From a bacterium (GTDB taxonomy: Bacteria > UBP14 > UBA6098), in contig JAGLDC010000036.1 in assembly GCA_023145965.1 (NCBI GenBank), positions 1 through 57,919 of the forward strand: DNA of 57,919 bases. The letters run 5' to 3'. The notes under the pieces were generated by a model that saw nothing but the letters and a program-made list of their open reading frames with translations, was not told the origin of the DNA and did no database searches. Shown piece after piece: positions 7,661 to 19,509 of the stretch; the first letter of the stretch is position 1, and every line of letters begins with the position of its first letter. The translations under genes and the position numbers were made by a program.

Positions 7661-7728
7661 TTTTTTTCTTTTAGAATTGCTTTTGTGGTTTTATTGAAAA
7701 AGTGATAATTACATATATATTTGATTCT

Positions 7729-9183
7729 ATGAAAAGTATTATTTTTAGTGTTGTTTTTTACTTAGGCCTATCCTATGGAAATTGCACGATAGGGGTTGCT
7801 TCTGGTTCGGTGACGTGTGATGGTAGGCCTTTGGCGTTCAAAACCCGTGACACTTCCTCATGGAGTCTTGAATATAAGGTTCAGACACCTTCGGGCTATT
7901 ATGCTTATGCTGGAAATACTTCTGTGGGTTCTTCGGGCGTGTGGTTCGGTCTTAGTGAAGCAGGTTTTGGTATCACTCAATCGGCGGCTTATAATTTATC
8001 TGGTGGTTGGAGTGGTTTAACTAACAGCAGTATGATGAACTATTCTTTAGAGCTTTGTTCGACGGTTGATGACTTCGAGGACATTTTGATATCGACAAAT
8101 TCGTCTGGTAGGTCCACAGCCGCGAACTATGCAGTTTTTGATGCATATGGTGGTGCGGCGATATTTGAGTGTGCACCGCATGAATATGCGCGTTACGATA
8201 CTGATTCACTGGGAATTGCCACTCATGGGAATTTTTCTTATATTGGGTCCTCGGGCAGAGTTGGTCAGAATCGCATGGACAGGGCATATTTGCTTATGAT
8301 TGAGGCTATTTCTGGTGATTCGTTAGATGCTACTTTTATTGCGAAACATGTCATATCTGATCTTTATTTAACCGGTCAAGATCCTTATCCCTTGCCATGG
8401 ACTGGCATTTTTTCTGGCCTTCCTGCGGGATGGATAGACACTGGACCTTTCCGGGAAACCCAAACAATTTGCAATGCAAACACACATGCTGCAGGTATTG
8501 CTCAGGGCGTGGCAATAGGCGAGAATCCTGAAAACTCGGTTCTTTGGTGTATATTTGCATCCCCTGTTTCATCTGTTCTTTTCCCTCTTTTCCCTGCAGC
8601 GTATGATGAGCCGCCGGAGGGCATAGGTTCTTCGTCCGCCATGTTTGTTGCGTGCAAAGCCAAATACGACTCTCTTTTTTCTCATTCATCGATTGATTAT
8701 TGGCTCGACGCAAGTTATCTTTTTGACAGTCTAGGGAATGGTGTGCTCACTTATGTTCCGGTTATCATCGATTGGGCATATGATTCGGTTTCGACACAGC
8801 TTTCAGCGTGGACATCCTCGACACCTTCGACTTTAGATAGAGCGGATTTTCAAGATGAAATGACTAGCTTGATTCTGGCCGCATACTTAAGCGGAACTCC
8901 ATTGAACATCGACGAAATACCAGATATTCCAAGCGAAATTTGTCTCTCTGCCTATCCAAATCCCTTTAACTCGTCATGTTTGATAGAACTCTCCTCCACT
9001 TTTGATGAGGATAAAGAAATATTTGTTATCGACATTGCAGGAAGAATATCCGATAAGATATTATTATCGGCTGGTTCTCACACGGCGCATTGGACACCCA
9101 CAGACGCAACACCATCGGGCCTTTATCTACTCCAAATTTCTGCCAAAAAACTCATTTCAAAAAGAGTATCCTATATTAAGTAA
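7729..9183 (+). CDS. Secreted C45-type Ntn hydrolase/acyltransferase-like protein with sorting domain
   Basis: From the ATG at 7729 the product has 484 residues (a GTG nine codons upstream is also in frame). A signal peptide ends at GN, directly followed by Cys19 (CTIGVASGS). The -1 residue is Asn, so it is not a lipobox; cleavage there would expose an N-terminal Cys nucleophile as used by Ntn hydrolases. The following blocks CDGRPLAFKTRDTS and GVWFGLSEAGFGITQSAAYNL resemble the acyl-coenzyme A:6-aminopenicillanate acyltransferase-like (C45) family. The C-terminus (about 403-484) is a sorting domain: AYPNPFNSS, FVIDIAGR, ATPSGLYLLQ, KRVSYIK. A secreted amidase or acyltransferase is likely; substrate unknown. 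No repeat is inserted in this sorting domain. Confidence 0.72.
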   Translation: MKSIIFSVVFYLGLSYGNCTIGVASGSVTCDGRPLAFKTRDTSSWSLEYKVQTPSGYYAYAGNTSVGSSGVWFGLSEAGFGITQSAAYNLSGGWSGLTNSSMMNYSLELCSTVDDFEDILISTNSSGRSTAANYAVFDAYGGAAIFECAPHEYARYDTDSLGIATHGNFSYIGSSGRVGQNRMDRAYLLMIEAISGDSLDATFIAKHVISDLYLTGQDPYPLPWTGIFSGLPAGWIDTGPFRETQTICNANTHAAGIAQGVAIGENPENSVLWCIFASPVSSVLFPLFPAAYDEPPEGIGSSSAMFVACKAKYDSLFSHSSIDYWLDASYLFDSLGNGVLTYVPVIIDWAYDSVSTQLSAWTSSTPSTLDRADFQDEMTSLILAAYLSGTPLNIDEIPDIPSEICLSAYPNPFNSSCLIELSSTFDEDKEIFVIDIAGRISDKILLSAGSHTAHWTPTDATPSGLYLLQISAKKLISKRVSYIK

Positions 9184-9268: not shown

Positions 9269-9775
9269 TTATGGTCTTTGCGGCGATGGCGCGCCGATGA
9301 GCCATGAAACGGAATCTTGAATATAAGCGGAATCCGCCGGCAATTCTGGCACCGTCACGCTATCGACGATACCGCCACCCGGTTCGAATAATGCTATCCA
9401 TTCACCGCCCGCGCTAATGCGGAAATCGGCGTGAAAATCGCCTTGTTCGGGTTCTGCGTCGCACCAAATCAGCAAAACCGTGTCCGGTTGGATTAAAGTG
9501 AAGTTCGGAAAAATGTATTTCAGTGTGTCAGGATCGTCGGTCAAGGCAAAACCCGAAATATCGACAGCAGTGTCCTGCGAATTGTAGATTTCGACATAAT
9601 CGTCGAAATCGCCGTGCTCGTCGGTGCAAATCGAGACATTATTTGAGACTATTTCGGACATGATAACGATATGCCAAACATCGACCGGCTCCGGCCCCGG
9701 CTCGTTCGGGGATCTCGTGCATCCGGCGAAGGCGATCAGCAGAATAAGCGATAGCAGCATGATAACCGGTTTCAT
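9269..9775 (-). CDS. Lipoprotein with lamin-tail (LTD) domain
   Basis: The 168-residue product begins with a lipoprotein signal (LLIAFAGC, lipidated Cys at residue 19), a short Pro-rich linker, and then one lamin-tail domain: SEIVSNNVS, DDYVEIYNSQDTAVDISGFALTDD, IWCDAEPEQGDFHADFRIS, GGEWIALFEPGG. The same domain type occurs in both CotH proteins of this operon (WADSDPEQGDLHTSFKLS). It is the last gene of the operon and directly abuts the porin gene. It is probably an envelope-bound binding or anchoring protein for the products encoded upstream. Confidence 0.8.
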   Translation of the reverse strand: MKPVIMLLSLILLIAFAGCTRSPNEPGPEPVDVWHIVIMSEIVSNNVSICTDEHGDFDDYVEIYNSQDTAVDISGFALTDDPDTLKYIFPNFTLIQPDTVLLIWCDAEPEQGDFHADFRISAGGEWIALFEPGGGIVDSVTVPELPADSAYIQDSVSWLIGAPSPQRP

Positions 9776-10753
9776 TTAGAACCTCGCGTGAACCTGAATT
9801 GTAATTTCGGTGTGCGGCGTTTCGTATTCGTCGTCGATATAACTTGCCTGGACTTTTAAGCGTGTTCCTTCGATAGGCTCGAAACCTAATCCTAAATGAG
9901 TCCTTTTTTTGTTATCCGAAAGATCGTGGAAAAGCGGATCCATGCCGTCCTCAAAACTATAATAATGTTTCCTTAAACAGTGCTCATATTGCAGATATGG
10001 TTGGAATTTGCCGAACGCGTATCGCGCCCAGAGTTCGTAGCCATTGAAATCATCGTTCGACACGACGTCGTTTCCGGCGATATATTCACCGCCCAATTCG
10101 AGATCGCCAGACGATGCTGTCGCCCCGATATTCCATGCGTCCCGCCATTCGAGACCGAGGGTGTCCAATCCGGTGCCGTAGCTCCCAATTAAATCGACGA
10201 ATTTTGAAGGCGAGTATATCAATCGTCCGGCGAACTGTTTTTCGCTGGTGATGGCGTCTCCCCCGTTTCCGTTGTAAAGGCCGAGGTCGTATTCGATTTG
10301 ATACGGCTCTTGAAAGAGCTTCCCGGAAATCCAAACACCTATATCGCGGTCGAGATAGCCGGCGTCGTCGAGAATATCGTGAATTTCGGTCCAATCCGCT
10401 GCGGGGACATCGCTCAAGCCAAGCAAATCCTCGAGGCCGATAGGTTTTCTTCTTTGCCCAATACCGATTTCGAGCGGGCGACCATATTTATACCGGATTA
10501 CGGCATCCTTGAGTTCCGCAAAACCGGAATTCAGATCGAAGGATATTCTCGCCGAGAATGTTGACAAGGAATCAAATTCGACCTTTATTTTCGGCCTAAC
10601 TCGGTCTATAAAAAATTCGTTATTTGGGTAAATCTCGCGTGAATCCCAACGCCAACCGGCGATAACCTCTCCACCAACATCGATATCCACCTTGGCAAAG
10701 GATATTACTGCGCATAAAAGTAGTATAGGAAATATGATGTTTCGTGTTTTCAT
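9776..10753 (-). CDS. Phosphate-selective porin O/P-like outer membrane protein
   Basis: The 325-residue product has a signal peptide (cut near SFA-KV). The blocks DRVRPKIKVEFDSLSTFSAR, AELKDAVIRYKYG and GIGQRRKPIGLEDLLG resemble the porin O/P family of outer-membrane barrels. Further alternating strands follow, ending in IQVHARF with the terminal Phe typical of barrel proteins. Family members pass anions such as phosphate or polyphosphate (known for OprO/OprP), but selectivity cannot be read here. Its start codon overlaps the DUF4956 stop by one base (TAATG), so the two are co-translated. Confidence 0.72.
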   Translation of the reverse strand: MKTRNIIFPILLLCAVISFAKVDIDVGGEVIAGWRWDSREIYPNNEFFIDRVRPKIKVEFDSLSTFSARISFDLNSGFAELKDAVIRYKYGRPLEIGIGQRRKPIGLEDLLGLSDVPAADWTEIHDILDDAGYLDRDIGVWISGKLFQEPYQIEYDLGLYNGNGGDAITSEKQFAGRLIYSPSKFVDLIGSYGTGLDTLGLEWRDAWNIGATASSGDLELGGEYIAGNDVVSNDDFNGYELWARYAFGKFQPYLQYEHCLRKHYYSFEDGMDPLFHDLSDNKKRTHLGLGFEPIEGTRLKVQASYIDDEYETPHTEITIQVHARF

Positions 10754-11643
10754 TATTTTATTTCGAAATCATCGAAGGTCGAGCTTTTATCTTGCTTCCA
10801 TTGAACCCTTATTACATCGTCTGAAGCGAGTTTTTCGGCAAGGAAATTCCTGTCGATATTTCCGAAAATCTCGACCTCGATCTCGGTCTGATCGCTTTCG
10901 GGGCCTTTATCGGCGACCACCCTTTTTATCTTATAGCCGACATCCTCTTTGAATAGAAACTCCTTGATCAGCGTGAGGGTTTCGTCCGGCTCCATTGTCC
11001 TGACCCTCAGGTTCCATGTCCAATTGGTCGGGAACAGGGCCTTTTTCATGCCGGACGGAATGTGCTCGATAAGGTTGATTACCACGACGATGTATAACGA
11101 GGCGATTATCGCGAGTGGATACAAGCCCACGCCGCATGCCATTCCTATGCCGAGGGCGATAACGAGCGAACTGGCTTCCTTCGGGGATTTAAGTGAATAT
11201 CGATATCGGACGATAGATGCCGCACCCATCAGCCCGAATGCGCGCGCGATTTGACTGCCGATTATCATCATCATGAGCGCCGACGCCGCCGAAAGGACAA
11301 TATGGGCTTCTGTGAAGTCCATCTGCGCACTTCCACCCCGCCTACGATAGCTCACTAAACCGGAAAGCACCGACGCGAGAAACAGCGTCGCGAGAATATT
11401 AAGGGCCTCACTCCAGTCGGTGTCCCATAGGGTCTTGCGGGGAGCACCGCCTTTGTCGGGCGGGCCTTCGATAGGCGAATCCGAATTTTCCTCTAAAAAT
11501 TCGATCGATCCGCTTTGTGCGAATGCTGTCGCCGAATTTAAAAAATGACCGGCGTCCGGTATCAGAACGAGAATTAAGATAAGTCCCGATAAAATAAAAA
11601 ATATTTGGGATTTACGACCGATTTTCAAAAAAATATTTTTCAT
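10753..11643 (-). CDS. DUF4956 inner membrane protein
   Basis: The 296-residue product has an N-terminal membrane segment (residues 14-31), a periplasmic linker with SPIEGPPDKGGAP, and then four closely spaced hydrophobic segments from LNILATLFLASVLSGLVSY to PLAIIASLYIVVVINLIEH. The arrangement GLMGAASIVRYRYSLKSPKEA between segments is the hallmark of DUF4956 proteins. A soluble C-terminal domain of about 90 residues (RVRTMEPDETLTLIKEFLF onward) follows and resembles a small alpha/beta fold. In other genomes DUF4956 genes often lie beside CotH and VTC-type polyphosphate polymerase genes (general knowledge); here CotH is present but no VTC domain. It overlaps the kinase-HD gene by four bases. 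Confidence 0.8.
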   Translation of the reverse strand: MKNIFLKIGRKSQIFFILSGLILILVLIPDAGHFLNSATAFAQSGSIEFLEENSDSPIEGPPDKGGAPRKTLWDTDWSEALNILATLFLASVLSGLVSYRRRGGSAQMDFTEAHIVLSAASALMMMIIGSQIARAFGLMGAASIVRYRYSLKSPKEASSLVIALGIGMACGVGLYPLAIIASLYIVVVINLIEHIPSGMKKALFPTNWTWNLRVRTMEPDETLTLIKEFLFKEDVGYKIKRVVADKGPESDQTEIEVEIFGNIDRNFLAEKLASDDVIRVQWKQDKSSTFDDFEIK

Positions 11644-13733
11644 AAGAATAGGCCATCTTTATTAGATTCATTTTTTGTTTTTATCCTCTCCATCCGGTTT
11701 CTATCAACTAAAACATCAATCCTGAATTGCTGCTCAAATAGGTCTTTTTTCGACAGAACATCCTTCCTCTCGGCCTTAGCCTTATTAACAGAGTTTATGT
11801 CGAGAACAAGCGCACCCATCTCCCTCGATACACGTAGTTTTGCGCTGACCTGTTTATTCGAGGAGTCCAGCGCATCTGCGACGCGTAATATAGCCGATAA
11901 ACGCCGAACGGCAAGTTGTTCTTCCGCGCAGAGCTTCCATTGCCGAACATTATCGAGCGAATATGCGGAACCGTTGTGATAAAGAGCGATAATCGCAACG
12001 ATGCGCTTATCCCTTTCTGTAAGTTCGGTGAATTCGTAATCCATGATTATATTATAGCTATGTTTTTCGTGCTCGGGACCCACCGAACGGCCAACATCGT
12101 GTAATAGCGCTGCGTATTCAAGCAAATCTCTCGCTGTTTTTCCGAGTCGGTGAATATCCACAGTTGCGTCGAAAATTTGGCCGGCAAATTCGCGGACTTT
12201 TTGCGCGTGTTCAAAATAGCCGTTATGCTGATGGTATAGCTCGAGAACTTCCTTTAAACGCTTATTTATCGGATAGTTTTCGGAACTGATATTGATAACC
12301 TCAGAGACGATTTTGGAAATCGGTTCGTAAAGTTCGGTATGGTCGCGATTACCCTTTAACAGTGAAATCCCGTCGGCTTTAACGATCTCCTGATAAGCCG
12401 AAATAGCATTTCGCTGATAAAAATCGAAACTCGTCTCGACATCGCGTGTGAAACCTATATCGAGGCCGGTATAAATCGATTCCTCCGCAAGCAAACTCGT
12501 GAAATCTATGCGTTCGAGCAAAATCTCGAACGGCGTATCGATATAAATAGTCAAGTCCGGTCGAACTCCGAACCCGCCAAGCGTCTCGATCAACCAATCC
12601 CGGTCCATTCCGCGCAATAAACCGCAAACGAGTGTCGTGATAAAATATCTGTTTAAAAGCACTATCGCCCCTCGCTTTAAAGCTGGCAATACCTCGATCT
12701 CGAGAATATAGGCCATCTCGCTCGCGGTGAGCATCACATTCGTGGAAGTAGATAGTGCATTCTTCTGGGCGGCGCGATCCATGATCTCCGTGGTTATCCA
12801 TGTTTCGCCCATGCCCGATTTGACTACATCAACATTGCGAACCTGAAGCCAGTCATAGAGTGCGTTAACCTGATGCGTAACTCCGGCGTGGTGCGCCCCC
12901 TCGATAACGATTAGTTTTCCGGGAAGGTTATGCTTTGGGAGTTTGCTAATAAATGAACCATTAGAGAGATTCAATTCGGTAGGATTCTTTCCAAAACAGC
13001 TCCCCTTAAACAATTCCACGCCTTTGTCATCTCGGGTTTCACGCTTTAAAGAAGAGGTTTTTAGAAGCGGTTCGACCTCCGTTAAAATAGAGTCGAATAT
13101 CTGGTCTTCATCTCGATCCATCTCGATCGGTGTCAAAATTCCCTTATCGACTAACTTCGCATACGCCTTATCTACTCTGCCCTGGAATTCCCTAAACGAT
13201 TGCGTCGGATCGGTTTCGCCGGAAACATCCATCCCGGACTCGTAGAACTTGGGCACATTTCCGTTTTTCTTCATCGCGCGTTTTAGCGCTACTTCCACAG
13301 GAACACGGCATAGAAACGCTAAGTCCGGTTCGATTGCGAGAGAAAAAATCCGCTTTACCCATTCAGCATCGATACCGCGCGCTTCATCGCGTGCAAGTGC
13401 AGTATATGAATATCGGTCGGCGATAACGATTTTACCTGCATTAAGCGACGGGATAATTATATTTTCGAGCCTGTTGAAGAAATCGGCGGCGTGGAGTGCG
13501 CTGAAGCAGTTTGGCGTAAGCAGTTGAGCGCGCTTGGCGTTTTTAATCGCTTTACCGATATATTTACTAGAATTCCAACTTGTAACGACAACCTTATTTC
13601 CCTTACTTTCAAGATAGTCGGCAAGTCGTTTTACCTGCGTGCTTTTTCCAGCACCATCGAGGCCCTCGAAGACGAGCAGCAGTCCGCGGCTATCAGTATC
13701 TCTCTGGATTTCATGTTTAGTATTATTTTTCAT
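11640..13733 (-). CDS. Tandem thymidylate-kinase-like domains (second degenerate) fused to a Ppx/GppA-type HD domain
   Basis: This 697-residue soluble protein has three parts. Residues 18-225 are a thymidylate-kinase-like P-loop domain with an intact Walker A (GLDGAGKST, 24-32) and DRYSY (106-110). Residues 273-470 repeat the same fold, but the P-loop reads GAHHAGVTH (279-287; the catalytic Lys replaced by Val) and DRY has become NRY (361-363), so this copy should not bind or hydrolyse ATP normally. Residues 487-650 form an HD domain with LLHDVGR (His545, Asp546), EKHSYNIIM, ALYHNG and RLSAILRVADALD, closely like the C-terminal domain of exopolyphosphatase/pppGpp phosphatases. It is not a housekeeping tmk gene. 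Between envelope genes, it may sense or turn over nucleotides, ppGpp or polyphosphate (inference). Confidence 0.8.
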   Translation of the reverse strand: MKNNTKHEIQRDTDSRGLLLVFEGLDGAGKSTQVKRLADYLESKGNKVVVTSWNSSKYIGKAIKNAKRAQLLTPNCFSALHAADFFNRLENIIIPSLNAGKIVIADRYSYTALARDEARGIDAEWVKRIFSLAIEPDLAFLCRVPVEVALKRAMKKNGNVPKFYESGMDVSGETDPTQSFREFQGRVDKAYAKLVDKGILTPIEMDRDEDQIFDSILTEVEPLLKTSSLKRETRDDKGVELFKGSCFGKNPTELNLSNGSFISKLPKHNLPGKLIVIEGAHHAGVTHQVNALYDWLQVRNVDVVKSGMGETWITTEIMDRAAQKNALSTSTNVMLTASEMAYILEIEVLPALKRGAIVLLNRYFITTLVCGLLRGMDRDWLIETLGGFGVRPDLTIYIDTPFEILLERIDFTSLLAEESIYTGLDIGFTRDVETSFDFYQRNAISAYQEIVKADGISLLKGNRDHTELYEPISKIVSEVINISSENYPINKRLKEVLELYHQHNGYFEHAQKVREFAGQIFDATVDIHRLGKTARDLLEYAALLHDVGRSVGPEHEKHSYNIIMDYEFTELTERDKRIVAIIALYHNGSAYSLDNVRQWKLCAEEQLAVRRLSAILRVADALDSSNKQVSAKLRVSREMGALVLDINSVNKAKAERKDVLSKKDLFEQQFRIDVLVDRNRMERIKTKNESNKDGLFL

Positions 13734-13784
13734 TTCTCCTCGTTTATTTTACGCTCTCCATTTAGCCACATAGTAAAAAGTTTT

Positions 13785-15428
13785 TTATTTTAAATAGATA
13801 ATTTTCTTCGATAGAGAAATATCTCCTGTTTTAACCCGGGCAAGATATACACCGGATCCGACCGTTTCGTCCGGTGTCCAAATTAATTCGCTCGCCCCGT
13901 CATTGCGAGCCTGCCAGTCGGCGCTTGCCGACCGAAGGGCGTGGCAATCTGTTTCTGATAAAGGCGAGATTGCCGCGTCGGGCGTTGCCCTCCTCGCAAT
14001 GACGTCTATACGCCGTCCGGCGATGTCGAATATCTCAATTTCTGGATTCCCGCTTTCGTTGGAATGACAATCGACGGAAATATTAACCGCAGAATTGAAC
14101 GGATTCGGGTAGGCGCCGATATTATATTCTTCCGGTAGATTAGACTGGTCGTCAATTCCAATCGATTCTACATCGCGCACGCAACGGACATAGTTTTCCA
14201 CACGGATTATATCCCCTTGCGGTCCGTGGCCGTGGACCGGATTGCCCAGCGAATCCACGCCGAGATAAAAATCGAGGGGCGAGCCACTTTTTGGGTCGCT
14301 ACGCTGCGCGCCCGCACCGTGAACATCGATATAGGAATAATAGGTTCTTCCGGGAAGTTGCATCCAACCTGCGGCACGACCGAAGCAAATATAAGCCGCC
14401 GAAGCACCGCCGTAAACCGTCGCGTGAGTTGTGCCGGTCCAGAACCATGGGTAATCTATCGCGCCGGCTTCATTCGTTATAGAGGCGCAATCGAACATCG
14501 GGTCGATAGCAGCGCCAGTTGTGCCGGGAGAGCGGCTATAATCGAGAATGCTCTGAAGTCCCTTCGCATTCGGAAGGCGCCAGTCGTCATGGCCTGCCAC
14601 GGTGAGCGTTTCGGCGTATTCGAGAGCGTCTTCCCAGCTCATACTTCCTGCGCTGTGACCTTTCTGCCACATCAGGCCGGTCGCGCTGTCGGTGAGAGTA
14701 CCGTCGCCGTTATCCGAAAAATCGTTCAAGCCGTAGTCTGCATTTCCACGTACGCAAATAAGCGTGAAGGTCTTGTCGCCCATCGGCATTGCGGTATCAT
14801 AACCTTTGATTCGGCCATCGGCGAAGTTCACTCCGAATAGTTTTGGCACACCGGGGATTGTATATTCATTATAAACGTTACTCGATGCGTATTGCGAATC
14901 GATAGGTCTTTCGCCCGCCAGAGTGTCGCCGTATGCAAAATCGAAAACATCGTCATCGATGAAGGGCTGCACTGCATCAAGAGAGCCGGTATATCCGCTG
15001 ATGTCTTGCCCGTTGAACTTTATCAGCGAATACTGTTCTTTAATCGTCGGCACGCGCCAGTCGCTGTATCCGCCGAAGCTTGCAGCATTGAGGACATCCG
15101 GGTAGGTCTGAACCTCGGTCCAGGTGAGTTTATCGTCGGCGTCCGTGTCGCCGTCGTCATCGGTGTCCGGGGTTTGTTGCCATGTCAGGCCTGTGACGTT
15201 GTCATAGACCGTAAGTCCGTCGCCGCTAATAGTGTAGCTCGGCGCGTTGCCGTCATATTGTGCGTCCTGACCGTAGAATGCCGCGCCGGGGGATGGGGGC
15301 GAGATAACGCTCGAATTATCGTAGCACTCCTCCTGCCCGGTATCGACGATTGGGTAAGTGACCGCGAAAGTGGATAAACCTAGGGCTAAAGTTGCGAGAA
15401 GTAATATATAGGCATGTCTTAATTTCAT
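13785..15428 (-). CDS. Secreted DUF1566 (Lcl C-terminal-like) double-domain protein with sorting domain
   Basis: The 547-residue product has a signal peptide (residues 5-22). Two DUF1566 repeats follow: the first around VTGLTWQQTPD, GGYSDWRVPTIKEQYSLI; the second around DNGDGTLTDSATGLMWQKG, GHDDWRLPNAKGLQSIL. DUF1566 domains are common in surface and adhesin-like proteins. A short calcium-site-like stretch DTDDDGDTDADD lies in the first. The C-terminus has YPNPFNSAVNI, EIFDIAGRR, LIWTP, GSGVYLARVK, KKIIYLK. Two repeat elements are translated in this tail (13899-14003 and 14044-14068). It lies between CotH and the kinase-HD gene with gaps of 23 and 51 bases, so it belongs to the same operon. 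Confidence 0.78.
   Translation of the reverse strand: MKLRHAYILLLATLALGLSTFAVTYPIVDTGQEECYDNSSVISPPSPGAAFYGQDAQYDGNAPSYTISGDGLTVYDNVTGLTWQQTPDTDDDGDTDADDKLTWTEVQTYPDVLNAASFGGYSDWRVPTIKEQYSLIKFNGQDISGYTGSLDAVQPFIDDDVFDFAYGDTLAGERPIDSQYASSNVYNEYTIPGVPKLFGVNFADGRIKGYDTAMPMGDKTFTLICVRGNADYGLNDFSDNGDGTLTDSATGLMWQKGHSAGSMSWEDALEYAETLTVAGHDDWRLPNAKGLQSILDYSRSPGTTGAAIDPMFDCASITNEAGAIDYPWFWTGTTHATVYGGASAAYICFGRAAGWMQLPGRTYYSYIDVHGAGAQRSDPKSGSPLDFYLGVDSLGNPVHGHGPQGDIIRVENYVRCVRDVESIGIDDQSNLPEEYNIGAYPNPFNSAVNISVDCHSNESGNPEIEIFDIAGRRIDVIARRATPDAAISPLSETDCHALRSASADWQARNDGASELIWTPDETVGSGVYLARVKTGDISLSKKIIYLK
13899..14003. repeat. 105-bp palindromic element inserted in frame in the DUF1566 sorting domain
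   Basis: Perfect 11-bp terminal inverted repeats, GTCATTGCGAG (13899-13909) and CTCGCAATGAC (13993-14003), enclose 83 bases with further GC-rich hairpins. The length of 105 bp is exactly 35 codons, so the frame is kept. The translated insert lies between GRRIDV and ELIWTP. The same family seems to be present in pieces at 1735 and 1836. Confidence 0.85.
14044..14068. repeat. Short TCATTCC...GGATTCC-type repeat in coding sequence
   Basis: On the coding strand this reads GTCATTCC...GGGAATCC with an ATTCC/GGAAT stem, related to the intergenic unit at 1871-1896. It is translated as HSNESGNPE just before EIFDIAGR. Peptides of this type mark such repeats in many genomes (general knowledge). Confidence 0.55.
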
Positions 15429-15451
15429 CTCATCCTTCTAACGTAAAAAAT

Positions 15452-17467
15452 TTACTTTAAATACACTATTCTCGTCGTAACCTCATTGTCCGCGGCTTTT
15501 ACCCGCACAAGATATACCCCGGAGGTGATATTTTCGACCGGTTGCCAGATTGCCTTCGTAGGGGCAGGCCCGTGTGCCTGCCCTTGTGGGCGAGCACATG
15601 GGGTCGTCCCTACGGAAATATTATCGACCATGCGTCCATTCACATCGAATATCTCTATTTTCGCGCCCGCCGTTGCGGTGATTGATACCGCCGAATTGAA
15701 CGGATTCGGAAAAACCGAAATTGACAGCTCCTTCGGCAATTCTACAGCCTCTTCGACCGAGACAGACCACATATTCTCCTCTTCCGGTGTAGCTACCGAG
15801 CAAATCTGCCACGTCACGCCACCATTTGGGTAGCGGCCCCAGCTGCTATCGGTAGGCATTGCAGTCCAGCTCACGCTATCGCACAGTTGCGCTCCAATGA
15901 AATCGGAGCCGGATAACGCAAGCTCCTCGCCACCAGCGGAGAGTTTGAAACTCGTATGCAAATCCCCCTGCTCGGGATCGCTATCCGCCCATACGAGAAG
16001 GTAGCCGTCCGAAGGAACCGTCGTCCCGTTCGGAAAACTCCACTTGCGCGGCTCGGTAACATCGTCCGAAACCCACCAATTAGATATATCCACCGTCGTA
16101 TCGCCGGGGTTGTAGATTTCGAACCAATCGTCGAATTCGCCCATCTCGTCGGCGATAATCGTGTCGTTGTCCGCCATGACCTCGTTTATCAGGACTGCGC
16201 CGGAAACATTCACGGGATCGCACGGCCCAATTACCGACGCCAGATAAATCCCCCGGTCATAAATGAAATCGCGCAAACCGGGTATAGTCGAGCTTCCGGG
16301 AGGATGTCCGCCACCGCTGACAATATCGTCGTCGAGATTCGTCTCGAAATCGGCGTTTGTGAACATTTTATTATCATCTGCATAAACATAAGGTCGAACC
16401 AAATCGGCCACAACCGTGACCCGTGCCGCGAAAGTCGAATATTCGAGGGTCGTTTCGAGAAGCTCGTGAATCGCGCAATCCACAAGGCGCGCGAACGGCG
16501 TCCAATCATCGAAAAGCCTTTCCGCTAAAGGCCTATCGGATGACATCCAATCGATAGCCATCGTGCGCATTGCGGATCCGCTCATCCCAAAGCTGAAAAC
16601 CCCGAAGGCCTCATTGACATCCTGGACGATATATCGTCCGATAGTATCCGAGTCAAAATACAGATAATAATTATGTCCGGTGCCCTGATAGCTGTCGAGG
16701 TTCACCAGAAACGTATTCGCGGCCCACATTCTCGCGAAACCGATAGCGTCGAACCATTCATTAATGCCGCCGAAATCCGTATCGCTCGAGTTGTTGAGAA
16801 AATTGCAGAATTCGATTAGGTCGGTCCAATCGTCCGCAGTTTCGTTAGTTGCCTTCTCGTAATGCGTTCGATAGGCGGATACCGTCCATCCAAACCATTC
16901 GAGAGTGCCGTTGGGGTCGCCCTTATATAGATTGCAGTCGTTCTCGCCAAAGAACCGCGTGAGAGCGTCCTTGTTTATCGGATCGACAGTCGTATAAAAT
17001 CCCCAGTATTCGTCGTTATAATAAACAACGGACCAGGTCGCCCTCGGACACGGAACGCCGAGACCGTGGAAAATCTCCGTGGCGAGCTTTTCCCGCAGGA
17101 ACGTCGGGTCTTTGAAACCGTTATTATAGCTAAGGCGCTCGTTACCGCGATAATCCCTGTCCTCGATATATTCGTCGATCTTCAAGTGGAACGGCTTTTT
17201 GTTTCCGGGATGGCCATAAGAGCTGTTGCCTTTAAGGCGAATGCCCACGCTGTCGAGCGTATCCACGGCGTCGAAAACGACGCTGCACATGATATATTCC
17301 TCGGTAGTGTGCGTCGCATCCAGCGCCGGCCAAAAATCCGGTTCGTCGAAATAGACACGCACCGTATGGACTGTATCGCTGAAAAAATCCGCGAATAGAG
17401 GAGATAGAAGCGGCAACCCTATCAATATGAAAATAAGTAGTAATCTATTCTTTCTCGTTTCAATCAT
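15452..17467 (-). CDS. Secreted CotH-like kinase with lamin-tail and sorting domains (paralogue 2)
   Basis: The 671-residue product has a signal peptide (residues 9-26). The CotH domain (about 32-410) shows GIRLKGNSSYGHPGNKKPFH, DPTFLREKLATEIFHGLGVPCPRATW, FFGENDCNLYKGD, NLDSYQGTGHNYYLY (Asp258) and VQDVNEAFG (Asp283). The last two are the likely catalytic/metal acidic residues by comparison with CotH, a secreted protein kinase of spore coats. A lamin-tail domain (about 427-560) and a sorting domain (about 585-671) follow. A palindromic repeat is translated in the latter (15557-15616). The gene is a tandem paralogue of 17488-19509, 20 bases downstream of it. It probably phosphorylates secreted or surface proteins (inference). 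Confidence 0.85.
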   Translation of the reverse strand: MIETRKNRLLLIFILIGLPLLSPLFADFFSDTVHTVRVYFDEPDFWPALDATHTTEEYIMCSVVFDAVDTLDSVGIRLKGNSSYGHPGNKKPFHLKIDEYIEDRDYRGNERLSYNNGFKDPTFLREKLATEIFHGLGVPCPRATWSVVYYNDEYWGFYTTVDPINKDALTRFFGENDCNLYKGDPNGTLEWFGWTVSAYRTHYEKATNETADDWTDLIEFCNFLNNSSDTDFGGINEWFDAIGFARMWAANTFLVNLDSYQGTGHNYYLYFDSDTIGRYIVQDVNEAFGVFSFGMSGSAMRTMAIDWMSSDRPLAERLFDDWTPFARLVDCAIHELLETTLEYSTFAARVTVVADLVRPYVYADDNKMFTNADFETNLDDDIVSGGGHPPGSSTIPGLRDFIYDRGIYLASVIGPCDPVNVSGAVLINEVMADNDTIIADEMGEFDDWFEIYNPGDTTVDISNWWVSDDVTEPRKWSFPNGTTVPSDGYLLVWADSDPEQGDLHTSFKLSAGGEELALSGSDFIGAQLCDSVSWTAMPTDSSWGRYPNGGVTWQICSVATPEEENMWSVSVEEAVELPKELSISVFPNPFNSAVSITATAGAKIEIFDVNGRMVDNISVGTTPCARPQGQAHGPAPTKAIWQPVENITSGVYLVRVKAADNEVTTRIVYLK
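15557..15616. repeat. In-frame CGTAGGGG-family repeat in the sorting domain of a CotH protein
   Basis: CGTAGGG (15558-15564) and CCCTACG (15608-15614) form the outer ends. GGGCAGGC (15562-15569) and GCCTGCCC (15576-15583) form a perfect inner stem, and a decayed second stem follows. It encodes the loop GTTPCARPQGQAHGPAPT between GRMVDN and AIWQP, the same position as in the metalloprotease. Confidence 0.8.
15988..16126. repeat. 139-bp segment identical to 18027-18165 (lamin-tail part of CotH paralogue 2)
   Basis: Every base matches the other CotH gene over 139 bp in the lamin-tail coding region, while the CotH and sorting parts differ widely. This suggests recent gene conversion or exchange of this domain. 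Confidence 0.85.
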
Positions 17468-17487
17468 CGATCTCTCCTTCTATTGAA

Positions 17488-19509
17488 TTACTTCAGATAA
17501 ACGATTTTTTCTGTTACAGATTTATTGTCCACATTAAGATTCACAAAATATGTTCCGGAACCAACAGAATCCCCCGGATTCCAAATCACAGAACCGACCT
17601 TTACACCCACACTCTTCGAGGCCGGTAATACGATACTCGAAACAAGTCTTCCTGAAATATCGATTACTTTTATATCGAGTGAAACATCGGCTCCGATGCT
17701 GGATGAGTATTCGACCTGCATCTTGACCGTCGAATTGAACGGATTCGGATATGCCAACAGCGAAAAGACCTCCGGTAAAACATCATTTGAAACGAATATC
17801 GAACCCCAGATATTCTCCGCCCCCGGAGTTGCCTCGACGCATATCTGCCAAGTCGCGCCGCTGTTCGGATAACGGCCGAAACTGCTGTCGGTGGGCATGA
17901 CCGTCCAACTCACGCTGTCACATAATCCCGTGCCGATAAAATCGGAGCCGGATAGGGCAAGCTCTTCGCCATCTGCGGAGAGTTTGAAGCTCGTGTGCAA
18001 ATCGCCCTGTTCGGGGTCGCTGTCTGCCCATACGAGAAGGTAGCCGTCCGAAGGAACCGTCGTCCCGTTCGGAAAACTCCACTTGCGCGGCTCGGTAACA
18101 TCGTCCGAAACCCACCAATTAGATATATCCACCGTCGTATCGCCGGGGTTGTAGATTTCGAACCAGTCGTCGAATTCGCCCATTTCGTCGGCGATTGTCG
18201 TGTCGTTATCCGCCATAACCTCGTTTATCAAAATCGCACCGGAAACATCAACCTCATCGCAAGGCCCGATATGACCGGAAATATACAAAGATCGGTCGGC
18301 GGTGAAATCGCGCACACCGGGGATAAGTCTCACATGAGGCGGGCTTCCCACTACAATATCGTCATCGAGATTCGCCTCGAAATTGGCGTTAGTATATTGT
18401 TTGTTCAAATCGGCATATACAAAGGGACGGACGAGATCGGCGAGTTCAGTCACGCGGGCGTCGAATGTCGTGGCTTCGAGTGTGGTTTCAAGAAGTTCGT
18501 GCAGCGCGCAATCCACGAGTCCTCGGAACGGCGGCCAGTTATCGAAAAGCCTCTCGGCAAGCGGTCGCCCGGATGAATCCGGCAGTCCGCCGGAATTATA
18601 CCAGTCTATAGGCAACTCCCTAAGCTCGGTGGCATCGAAACCATACTTGTTGAAGACTCCGAACGCCAGATTCAGGTCATAGACGATGTATCGTCCGATC
18701 GTGTCGTAATCGAAGCATAAAAAATAGTTGCGTCCGAAACCTTGATAGCTGTCGAGGTTCACGAGAAAAGTATTCGCTGCCCACGCACGCGCGAAGCCGA
18801 CGGCATCGAAACGGTCGCAAATCCCTGCGGCGAAAGTGCTGTCGTCCGTATGGTTGAGGAAATCCAAAAAATCGATAAGGTCGAGCCAATCGTCCGCGCT
18901 TTCGTTGGCAGAGATTTGATATCTGCTCATATACGGGGCAACGCCCGGACCGAGCCATTCGAGCGAAGCCAACCTATCGCAATTGTATAGGTTGCCATCG
19001 TTATATCCAAAAAAGCGGGTCATTGCCTGTTTGTTCGTCGGATCGACGGTCGAATAGAATCCCCAATATATGTCGTTGTAATAGACTACCGACCAGCTCG
19101 CCCTCGGACATGGAACGCCCAAACCGTGGAAAATCTCCGTAGCGAGTTTCTCGCGTATAAATGTCGGATCGTTGTAGCAATTGTTGAACGATATCCGCTC
19201 GTTGCCGAGATAATCCATATCGTCGATGTATTCGTCGAATTTTAGGTGAAACGGCTTTTTCCTACCCGGATGGTTATACGAACTGTTGCCTTTAATACGG
19301 ATACCCACGTTATCGAGCGTATCGATCCCGTCTATCACGACGTCACAGATGATATAATCCCCGGTTTCGTGCGTGGAATCCAGCGTTTCCCAAAAATCCG
19401 GGTCGTCGAAATAGACGCGCACGGTGTGGACGGTATCGCCAAAAAAAGACGCCATCAAAGAAAATACAACTATACTTAAAACAAATGTCATTAATATTAA
19501 TCGCTTCAT
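17488..19509 (-). CDS. Secreted CotH-like kinase with lamin-tail and sorting domains (paralogue 1, first gene of the operon)
   Basis: The 673-residue product has a signal peptide (residues 4-20). The CotH domain covers about 25-412: GIRIKGNSSYNHPGRKKPFH (69-88), DPTFIREKLATEIFHGLGVP, FFGYNDGNLYN, NLDSYQG (Asp252) and YDLNLAFG (Asp278), which carry the expected acidic residues. The lamin-tail domain is at 424-560 (DEMGEFDDWFEIYNPGDTT). The sorting domain is at 586-673 (AYPNPFNSTV, VIDISGRLV, VIWNPGDSVGSGTYFV, EKIVYLK) and has no repeat insertion. It is the first of seven minus-strand genes with gaps of 51 bases or less, so one transcript is likely. The segment 19510-19870 upstream should hold the promoter. 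Confidence 0.86.
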   Translation of the reverse strand: MKRLILMTFVLSIVVFSLMASFFGDTVHTVRVYFDDPDFWETLDSTHETGDYIICDVVIDGIDTLDNVGIRIKGNSSYNHPGRKKPFHLKFDEYIDDMDYLGNERISFNNCYNDPTFIREKLATEIFHGLGVPCPRASWSVVYYNDIYWGFYSTVDPTNKQAMTRFFGYNDGNLYNCDRLASLEWLGPGVAPYMSRYQISANESADDWLDLIDFLDFLNHTDDSTFAAGICDRFDAVGFARAWAANTFLVNLDSYQGFGRNYFLCFDYDTIGRYIVYDLNLAFGVFNKYGFDATELRELPIDWYNSGGLPDSSGRPLAERLFDNWPPFRGLVDCALHELLETTLEATTFDARVTELADLVRPFVYADLNKQYTNANFEANLDDDIVVGSPPHVRLIPGVRDFTADRSLYISGHIGPCDEVDVSGAILINEVMADNDTTIADEMGEFDDWFEIYNPGDTTVDISNWWVSDDVTEPRKWSFPNGTTVPSDGYLLVWADSDPEQGDLHTSFKLSADGEELALSGSDFIGTGLCDSVSWTVMPTDSSFGRYPNSGATWQICVEATPGAENIWGSIFVSNDVLPEVFSLLAYPNPFNSTVKMQVEYSSSIGADVSLDIKVIDISGRLVSSIVLPASKSVGVKVGSVIWNPGDSVGSGTYFVNLNVDNKSVTEKIVYLK
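18027..18165. repeat. 139-bp segment identical to 15988-16126 (lamin-tail part of CotH paralogue 1)
   Basis: This is the partner of the identical tract in the downstream CotH gene. The first mismatches occur just outside it (for example GAACCA-G here against GAACCA-A there). Confidence 0.85.

Follow-up and report, generated by a model that had tools for sequence, protein, structure and literature searches.

We analysed a 57,919-nucleotide contig from a bacterium of the little-known candidate phylum UBP14 (JAGLDC010000036.1 in assembly GCA_023145965.1; hereafter the window), in which seven genes occupy exactly positions 9269-19509 of the minus strand and encode two predicted secreted CotH kinases, a DUF1566 surface protein, a fusion of two thymidylate-kinase-like domains with an HD domain, an MgtC-like DUF4956 membrane protein, a porin and a lamin-tail lipoprotein. 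Our reading, held at a probability of roughly 0.5, is that this operon is the UBP14 version of a DUF4956-centred envelope system in which the polyphosphate polymerase VTC has been replaced by a polyphosphate-type kinase fusion. Its direct basis is the domain make-up of the proteins, their conserved order, the position of the fusion in the VTC slot, its kinship with tandem kinase pairs in other lineages and the finding of no other polyphosphate synthases in the phylum. In the literature we searched we found no description of such a fusion, of its location in the VTC slot or of the porin that accompanies it; the individual parts all come from described families, and clusters of DUF4956, VTC and CotH have been described before. 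The features are as follows, in the direction of transcription.

20093-20072, minus strand: strong hairpin resembling an intrinsic terminator, with a T-run, after frr
17488-19509, minus strand: CotH kinase 2, secreted; CotH domain, lamin tail and C-terminal sorting-type tail (PF08757 3e-50, PF00932 5e-17)
15452-17467, minus strand: CotH kinase 1, secreted; CotH domain, lamin tail and Por tail (PF08757 6e-52)
13785-15428, minus strand: DUF1566/Lcl_C surface protein with a Por tail (Pfam)
11640-13733, minus strand: the fusion, comprising a thymidylate-kinase-like kinase, a degenerate thymidylate-kinase-like domain and a Ppx/GppA-type HD domain (PF02223 twice, PF21447, PF01966)
13059-13688, minus strand: kinase domain 1 of the fusion, with intact P-loop EGLDGAGKST, subfamily motif WNSS (not REPGG) and DRY
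12291-12923, minus strand: kinase domain 2 of the fusion, with degenerate P-loop EGAHHAGVTH, its lysine replaced by V
11661-12269, minus strand: HD domain of the fusion, of Ppx/GppA domain III type, with conserved H509, H545-D546, H555 and D620
10753-11643, minus strand: MgtC-like DUF4956 inner-membrane protein with a C-terminal ACT-like domain (PF16316 34.0 bits, PF02308 34.6 bits)
9776-10753, minus strand: outer-membrane porin (PF13609, Porin_4, 31 bits)
9269-9775, minus strand: lamin-tail-domain lipoprotein with lipobox FAGC (PF00932 1.5e-15)

The junctions between the seven genes, in transcription order, measure +20, +23, +51, -4, -1 and 0 bases. Because the hairpin separates them from the upstream translation genes and the downstream neighbour (7702-9183, plus strand) is convergent, they form one transcription unit as far as can be read from the DNA. 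This agrees with a preliminary description of the region as a seven-gene minus-strand operon. Pfam backs every domain call made there and refines two of them: it scores the membrane protein alike as MgtC and as DUF4956, and it identifies both kinase halves as thymidylate-kinase domains.

The order CotH, fusion, MgtC-like DUF4956, porin, lamin-tail lipoprotein is kept in three genera. Two of these are other genera of the same family (g2 and g3, loci L004 and L005), where CotH, fusion, DUF4956 and porin retain their order at about 60% protein identity, a recurrence which argues that the operon is more than chance; the lipoprotein follows the porin there wherever the contig extends so far, and it is retained in L005 and in L012. 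The other relatives of the window genome are metagenome-assembled genomes from sediments or seeps. The preliminary description had named two findings that would speak against its proposal, a loss of gene order in relatives and unrelated contexts for the fusion and DUF4956; neither occurred for the core.

A genome of a different family (G013) carries the fusion near the end of one contig (C29) and DUF4956-porin at the start of another (C63). The ends of these contigs share an exact overlap of 141 bases, found at no other fetched locus, and the assembly was made with k=141, so the two ends are very probably neighbours. Bridged in this way, the fusion, three small open reading frames, DUF4956 and the porin lie in that order on the same strand, with 2112 bp between fusion and DUF4956, and we dropped the idea that the two are unlinked in this genome. 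CotH, by contrast with this trio, is unlinked and located elsewhere in the genome, so that the proposed gene neighbourhood holds for the core in three genera and for fusion-DUF4956-porin in a second family, but not for CotH there. Across 17 UBP14 genomes the fusion, DUF4956 and CotH co-occur (Fisher p 0.002-0.01, not corrected for phylogeny). In the window's own genus, one genome (G003, L012:9197-12183) has an operon collapsed through internal deletions, with, in order, a truncated CotH, a hybrid open reading frame that joins in frame residues 441-641 of the fusion, 139-241 of DUF4956 and 283-325 of the porin, and an intact lipoprotein; this is either decay or an assembly artefact.

DUF4956 and the place of VTC

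We know of no function for DUF4956. The window protein scores slightly above the cut-offs of both families to which it can be assigned (30.6 bits for PF16316 and 31.4 bits for PF02308). Its C-terminus has a beta-alpha-beta-beta-alpha-beta topology whose best Foldseek match is the C-terminal domain of MgtC (7qa5), with 2lqj among the top matches; the structure model has low confidence (predicted local distance difference test score 47), and from it we used the C-terminal topology alone, so the ACT-like fold is a low-confidence assignment.

In a sample of 386 bacterial genomes, scanned both for DUF4956 loci and for tandem kinase pairs, VTC lies within about 6 kb of DUF4956 at 35 of 49 loci outside UBP14 and CotH at 20 of the 49, much as the preliminary description had stated. 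VTC itself (PF09359) has no match in the window genome or in any of the 17 UBP14 genomes, a search that did return matches in three control genomes, and neither PPK1 nor PPK2 was found in the 17. Because DUF4956 usually adjoins VTC elsewhere and UBP14 lacks VTC, PPK1 and PPK2, we place the fusion in the position of VTC. One locus outside UBP14 (L100) has CotH, porin, VTC and DUF4956 in a row, together with further CotH and lamin-tail genes; its parts are those of the window operon, except that VTC stands where the fusion would be. The earlier suggestion that a kinase-HD protein stands in for the VTC part is strengthened by all three observations.

The closest described counterpart is the accessory group of DUF4956, polyphosphate polymerase (VTC) and CotH at Gram-positive pel loci (PMC7112168), for instance SIR_1592-1594 of Streptococcus intermedius (PMC12345266). 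Like the window, it places an MgtC/ACT membrane protein, a secreted CotH and a cytoplasmic enzyme of polyphosphate type in adjacent genes; unlike it, the window has a kinase-pseudokinase-HD fusion rather than VTC, adds a porin and a lamin-tail lipoprotein, and has no Pel genes among the seven, for which reason we rejected a Pel operon. In S. intermedius, deletion of either the DUF4956 or the CotH gene lowers aggregation and changes the amount of Pel; for the VTC gene the study reports nothing of the kind (PMC12345266). Since both deletions affect aggregation and Pel, the DUF4956 and CotH proteins share a process, in this species at least. Near the other VTC-CotH loci no recurrent Pel family appears among the 25 commonest neighbour families. 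At 17 loci (within L092-L128), from many genomes, DUF4956, VTC and CotH stand together with no recurrent Pel families nearby, which conflicts with the statement in PMC12345266 that restricts such synteny to pel loci.

In a tree of DUF4956 proteins, those of UBP14 fall in a branch of 11 rows (support 93/84), and every member of this branch has a gene of barrel type next to it; the nearest relatives of the UBP14 proteins are those of L084, L085, L086, L087, L091 and L124. The window porin is homologous to the porins adjoining DUF4956 in L084 and L087 (hhalign 96%, E 1.7e-9), and the L091 porin was recruited by an iterated profile. The corresponding genes in L085 and L086 are barrel-like, with homology to the window porin not provable, and that of L124 was judged by eye only. 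Like the window operon, these loci have a porin or barrel-like gene next to DUF4956; unlike it, they have no kinase-HD fusion, and L091 carries VTC and a canonical-branch thymidylate kinase. Of the six genomes outside UBP14 in this branch, three also encode a tandem kinase pair at another site (P 0.002), in two independent families only.

The L091 locus (L091:1779-7977, in the GC-rich 9 Mb genome G043) reads porin, VTC, thymidylate kinase with a long C-terminal extension, DUF4956 and calcineurin-like phosphatase. We considered this thymidylate kinase as an orthologue and rejected it, the tree placing it with the housekeeping branch. Two further DUF4956/VTC loci, L115 and L127, also contain Ppx (L127 also SixA) and bridge the VTC-DUF4956 and classic polyphosphate gene sets.

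Relatives of the kinase fusion

Foldseek places ST1543 and GppA/PPX at the top of the matches to the fusion. Sulfolobus ST1543 is the closest solved relative of kinase 1, at 42% identity in Foldseek and E 5e-49 against 1e-20 for the next best; the solved relatives are annotated as deoxythymidine monophosphate (dTMP) kinases, and kinase 1 scores above the NCBIfam cut-off for that enzyme. The second domain was called a pseudokinase from the outset, and the call holds: the P-loop lysine is valine in all four fusions. The HD domain has the domain III fold (PF21447 2.7e-16; Foldseek matches to GppA/PPX). In the solved Ppx and GppA structures an HD domain of this kind is not the catalytic domain. 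As the fusion has no match to the ASKHA catalytic domains I-II of Ppx (PF02541), the term 'exopolyphosphatase type', which the preliminary description had applied to the HD domain, is right for the HD module and does not extend to a Ppx catalytic domain.

Several simpler identities were rejected. The fusion is not a Ppx, for want of that catalytic domain; nor a PPK2, whose models match some 40 residues around the P-loop only; nor a housekeeping dTMP kinase, because each fusion-bearing genome has its own separate tmk (at G000:C37:19160 in the window genome, whose separate Ppx, of 316 aa, is also at G000:C37) and the REPGG motif is absent. The two-domain PPK2 (polyphosphate:AMP phosphotransferase) does resemble the fusion in joining two P-loop kinase domains of the thymidylate-kinase superfamily, and differs in the P-loop-only match just mentioned. 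Scanning genome contigs with the fusion as a single protein found no relatives, scanning with an alignment found relatives in UBP14 only, and tblastn against plasmids returned pieces of the Ppx HD domain or of tmk only.

In other lineages of the 386-genome sample the two kinases are tandem genes, with 20 cases (L034-L053) in which the first P-loop is intact and the second lacks the lysine, with R for K in 18. The WNSS-type motif and the P-loop lysine are present in 24 of 24 first kinases, and REPGG in 15 of 15 UBP14 housekeeping kinases. Both halves of the fusion group with the tandem genes apart from the housekeeping kinases (support 100/100), and the second half lies inside the clade of tandem second genes (99/94). 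Ppx, its HD domain, CHAD, SixA or PPK2 lies near 13 of the 20 tandem loci, against 2 of 49 control loci, for which we used the DUF4956 loci (p 1.6e-7). One tandem locus (L034) has HD, kinase 1 and kinase 2 as three consecutive genes and is the unfused counterpart of the fusion. The pairs thus share with the fusion an intact-P-loop kinase followed by a lysine-less one, with HD nearby; they differ in being separate genes with no DUF4956, porin or CotH nearby. The polyphosphate association proposed earlier gains from this: in other genomes, kinases of this subfamily and HD domains of this type are polyphosphate-cluster proteins.

At L034:3262-4767 a CHAD domain is fused behind an HD domain, and the gene has as its neighbours a separate HD gene and the kinase pair. 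The tandem-pair genes (L034-L053) score as dTMP kinase in NCBIfam, an annotation that is probably wrong for them; this suggests that many bacterial proteins annotated as dTMP kinases are polyphosphate enzymes.

Archaea offer a parallel. Crenarchaeota produce polyphosphate without PPK1 or PPK2 (PMC6864096; PMC7831078), CHAD clusters of Sulfolobales include genes for SixA, PPX and a dTMP kinase (PMC10892726, Fig. 2), and the polyphosphate-synthesising enzyme of S. acidocaldarius is cited as characterised under the name 'family 3 polyphosphate kinase' (PPK3; PMC11677633, PMC13318637). The Sulfolobales cluster and the fusion have in common the thymidylate-kinase-like WNSS subfamily, to which ST1543 belongs, and a partner of exopolyphosphatase type, and they differ in that UBP14 has both kinases and the HD domain in one chain, without a Ppx catalytic domain and within an envelope operon. 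PPK3 we take to be a thymidylate-kinase-like pair encoded beside ppx.

A proposed scheme and its rivals

The interpretation given in the preliminary description is supported in part, its trans-envelope phosphorylation and any action of the HD domain on polyphosphate or ppGpp being conjectural. In the scheme that we propose, the degenerate kinase domain would hold the intact one, which would draw on cytoplasmic nucleotides to make or remodel polyphosphate or a similar carrier of phosphoryl groups, and the HD domain would bind or trim the product. The MgtC-like DUF4956 protein would sense this state through its ACT domain and, at the inner membrane, let the flux through or gate it; the porin would be its outer-membrane partner, and the lipoprotein and CotH kinases would work at the surface. 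Catalysis, transport or export and the phosphoryl donor of CotH are the parts that we infer, and that the fusion's product is polyphosphate is the main uncertainty. Two unrelated enzymes of polyphosphate type occupy one slot beside one membrane protein. On genetic grounds, this argues for DUF4956 handling polyphosphate or its product, and it suggests that an unexplained envelope system runs on polyphosphate. The link can be tested directly, for instance in Corynebacterium glutamicum, where DUF4956, VTC and CotH are all present. To our knowledge, no phosphoryl source has been described for secreted bacterial kinases of CotH type. A more speculative version, which we consider doubtful, is that VTC and a thymidylate-kinase-like PPK3 fusion, as unrelated polymerases, can substitute for each other in feeding a single DUF4956 gate, and that polyphosphate or a related donor leaves through DUF4956 and the porin to power or cap phosphorylation by CotH at the surface, where adenosine triphosphate (ATP) is scarce.

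Several observations weigh against a polyphosphate system. UBP14 may make no polyphosphate at all; a short Ppx occurs in 10 of the 17 genomes, with or without the fusion, and the search for it in G002, a fusion-bearing genome, found none. Seven of the 20 tandem pairs have no polyphosphate gene nearby, and none of the fetched tandem-pair loci outside UBP14 contains DUF4956, VTC or CotH. The porin-linked DUF4956 branch that holds UBP14 is mostly without VTC and CotH, and the only other thymidylate kinase adjoining DUF4956, that of L091, is of the canonical branch. Finally, that PPK3 is of the WNSS-type subfamily is a presumption of ours.

The fusion could instead serve nucleotide balance, acting as a (deoxy)nucleoside monophosphate kinase with an HD phosphohydrolase that tunes nucleotide pools and perhaps provides the surface kinases with ATP or restricts its supply, with no polyphosphate involved. 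Kinase 1 does retain the thymidylate-kinase fold, P-loop and DRY, its score and the annotation of its solved relatives point the same way, and the HD residues are intact. Yet a housekeeping tmk is present in every fusion genome, REPGG has given way to a conserved WNSS type, and both the subfamily and the HD type have Ppx, CHAD, SixA and PPK2 as cluster partners, which makes this account unlikely. The same degenerate second kinase and Ppx/GppA-type HD module could also belong to a regulator, in which the three domains sense nucleotides, polyphosphate or alarmones and control the MgtC-like protein with its ACT domain, and hence phosphate or ATP balance, without export; work cited in PMC12345266 connects MgtC with ATP synthase and with the control of phosphate. 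The constant porin partner and the filling of the slot elsewhere by an enzyme, VTC, are left unexplained by such a regulator, and we think it rather improbable. Least probable, in our view, is a loose neighbourhood of separate functions (DUF4956-porin, the fusion, and CotH with other surface genes) sharing an operon by chance in one family. It would account for a DUF1566 gene that comes and goes, for CotH paralogues that vary among genera and for the unlinked CotH of G013, but fits poorly with an order retained at about 60% identity in three genera, the fusion-DUF4956-porin linkage in a second family, joint presence and absence over 17 genomes and the joint decay in G003.

Surface proteins and flanking DNA

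Both predicted CotH kinases match the secreted CotH kinase of DUF4956-VTC-CotH systems, and the Por tail of CotH kinase 2 scores just below its cut-off (26.8 against 27 bits). CotH kinase 1 aligns to B. cereus CotH (5jd9, E 8e-9) and shares the HNY.LY stretch with it; in the WDYD..G region its QDVNEAFG lies opposite WDYDATWG, keeping one acidic residue (D) and having N for the other. The preliminary description counted two CotH genes in the set; CotH does belong to the core, but the tandem of two is seen in the window genome only. The lamin-tail DNA of the two genes (15863-16189 and 17905-18228) is 94-99% identical over some 180 bases and about 70% identical in the rest, and therefore points to recent gene conversion. 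The DUF1566 gene, also counted as a member, is absent from L004, L005 and L011/L013, and is probably an accessory outside the core.

No Rfam elements were found in the window. The convergent gene at 7702-9183 encodes a product in which Pfam finds no catalytic domain; it is secreted, with a Por-type tail of 26.2 bits, slightly below the cut-off.

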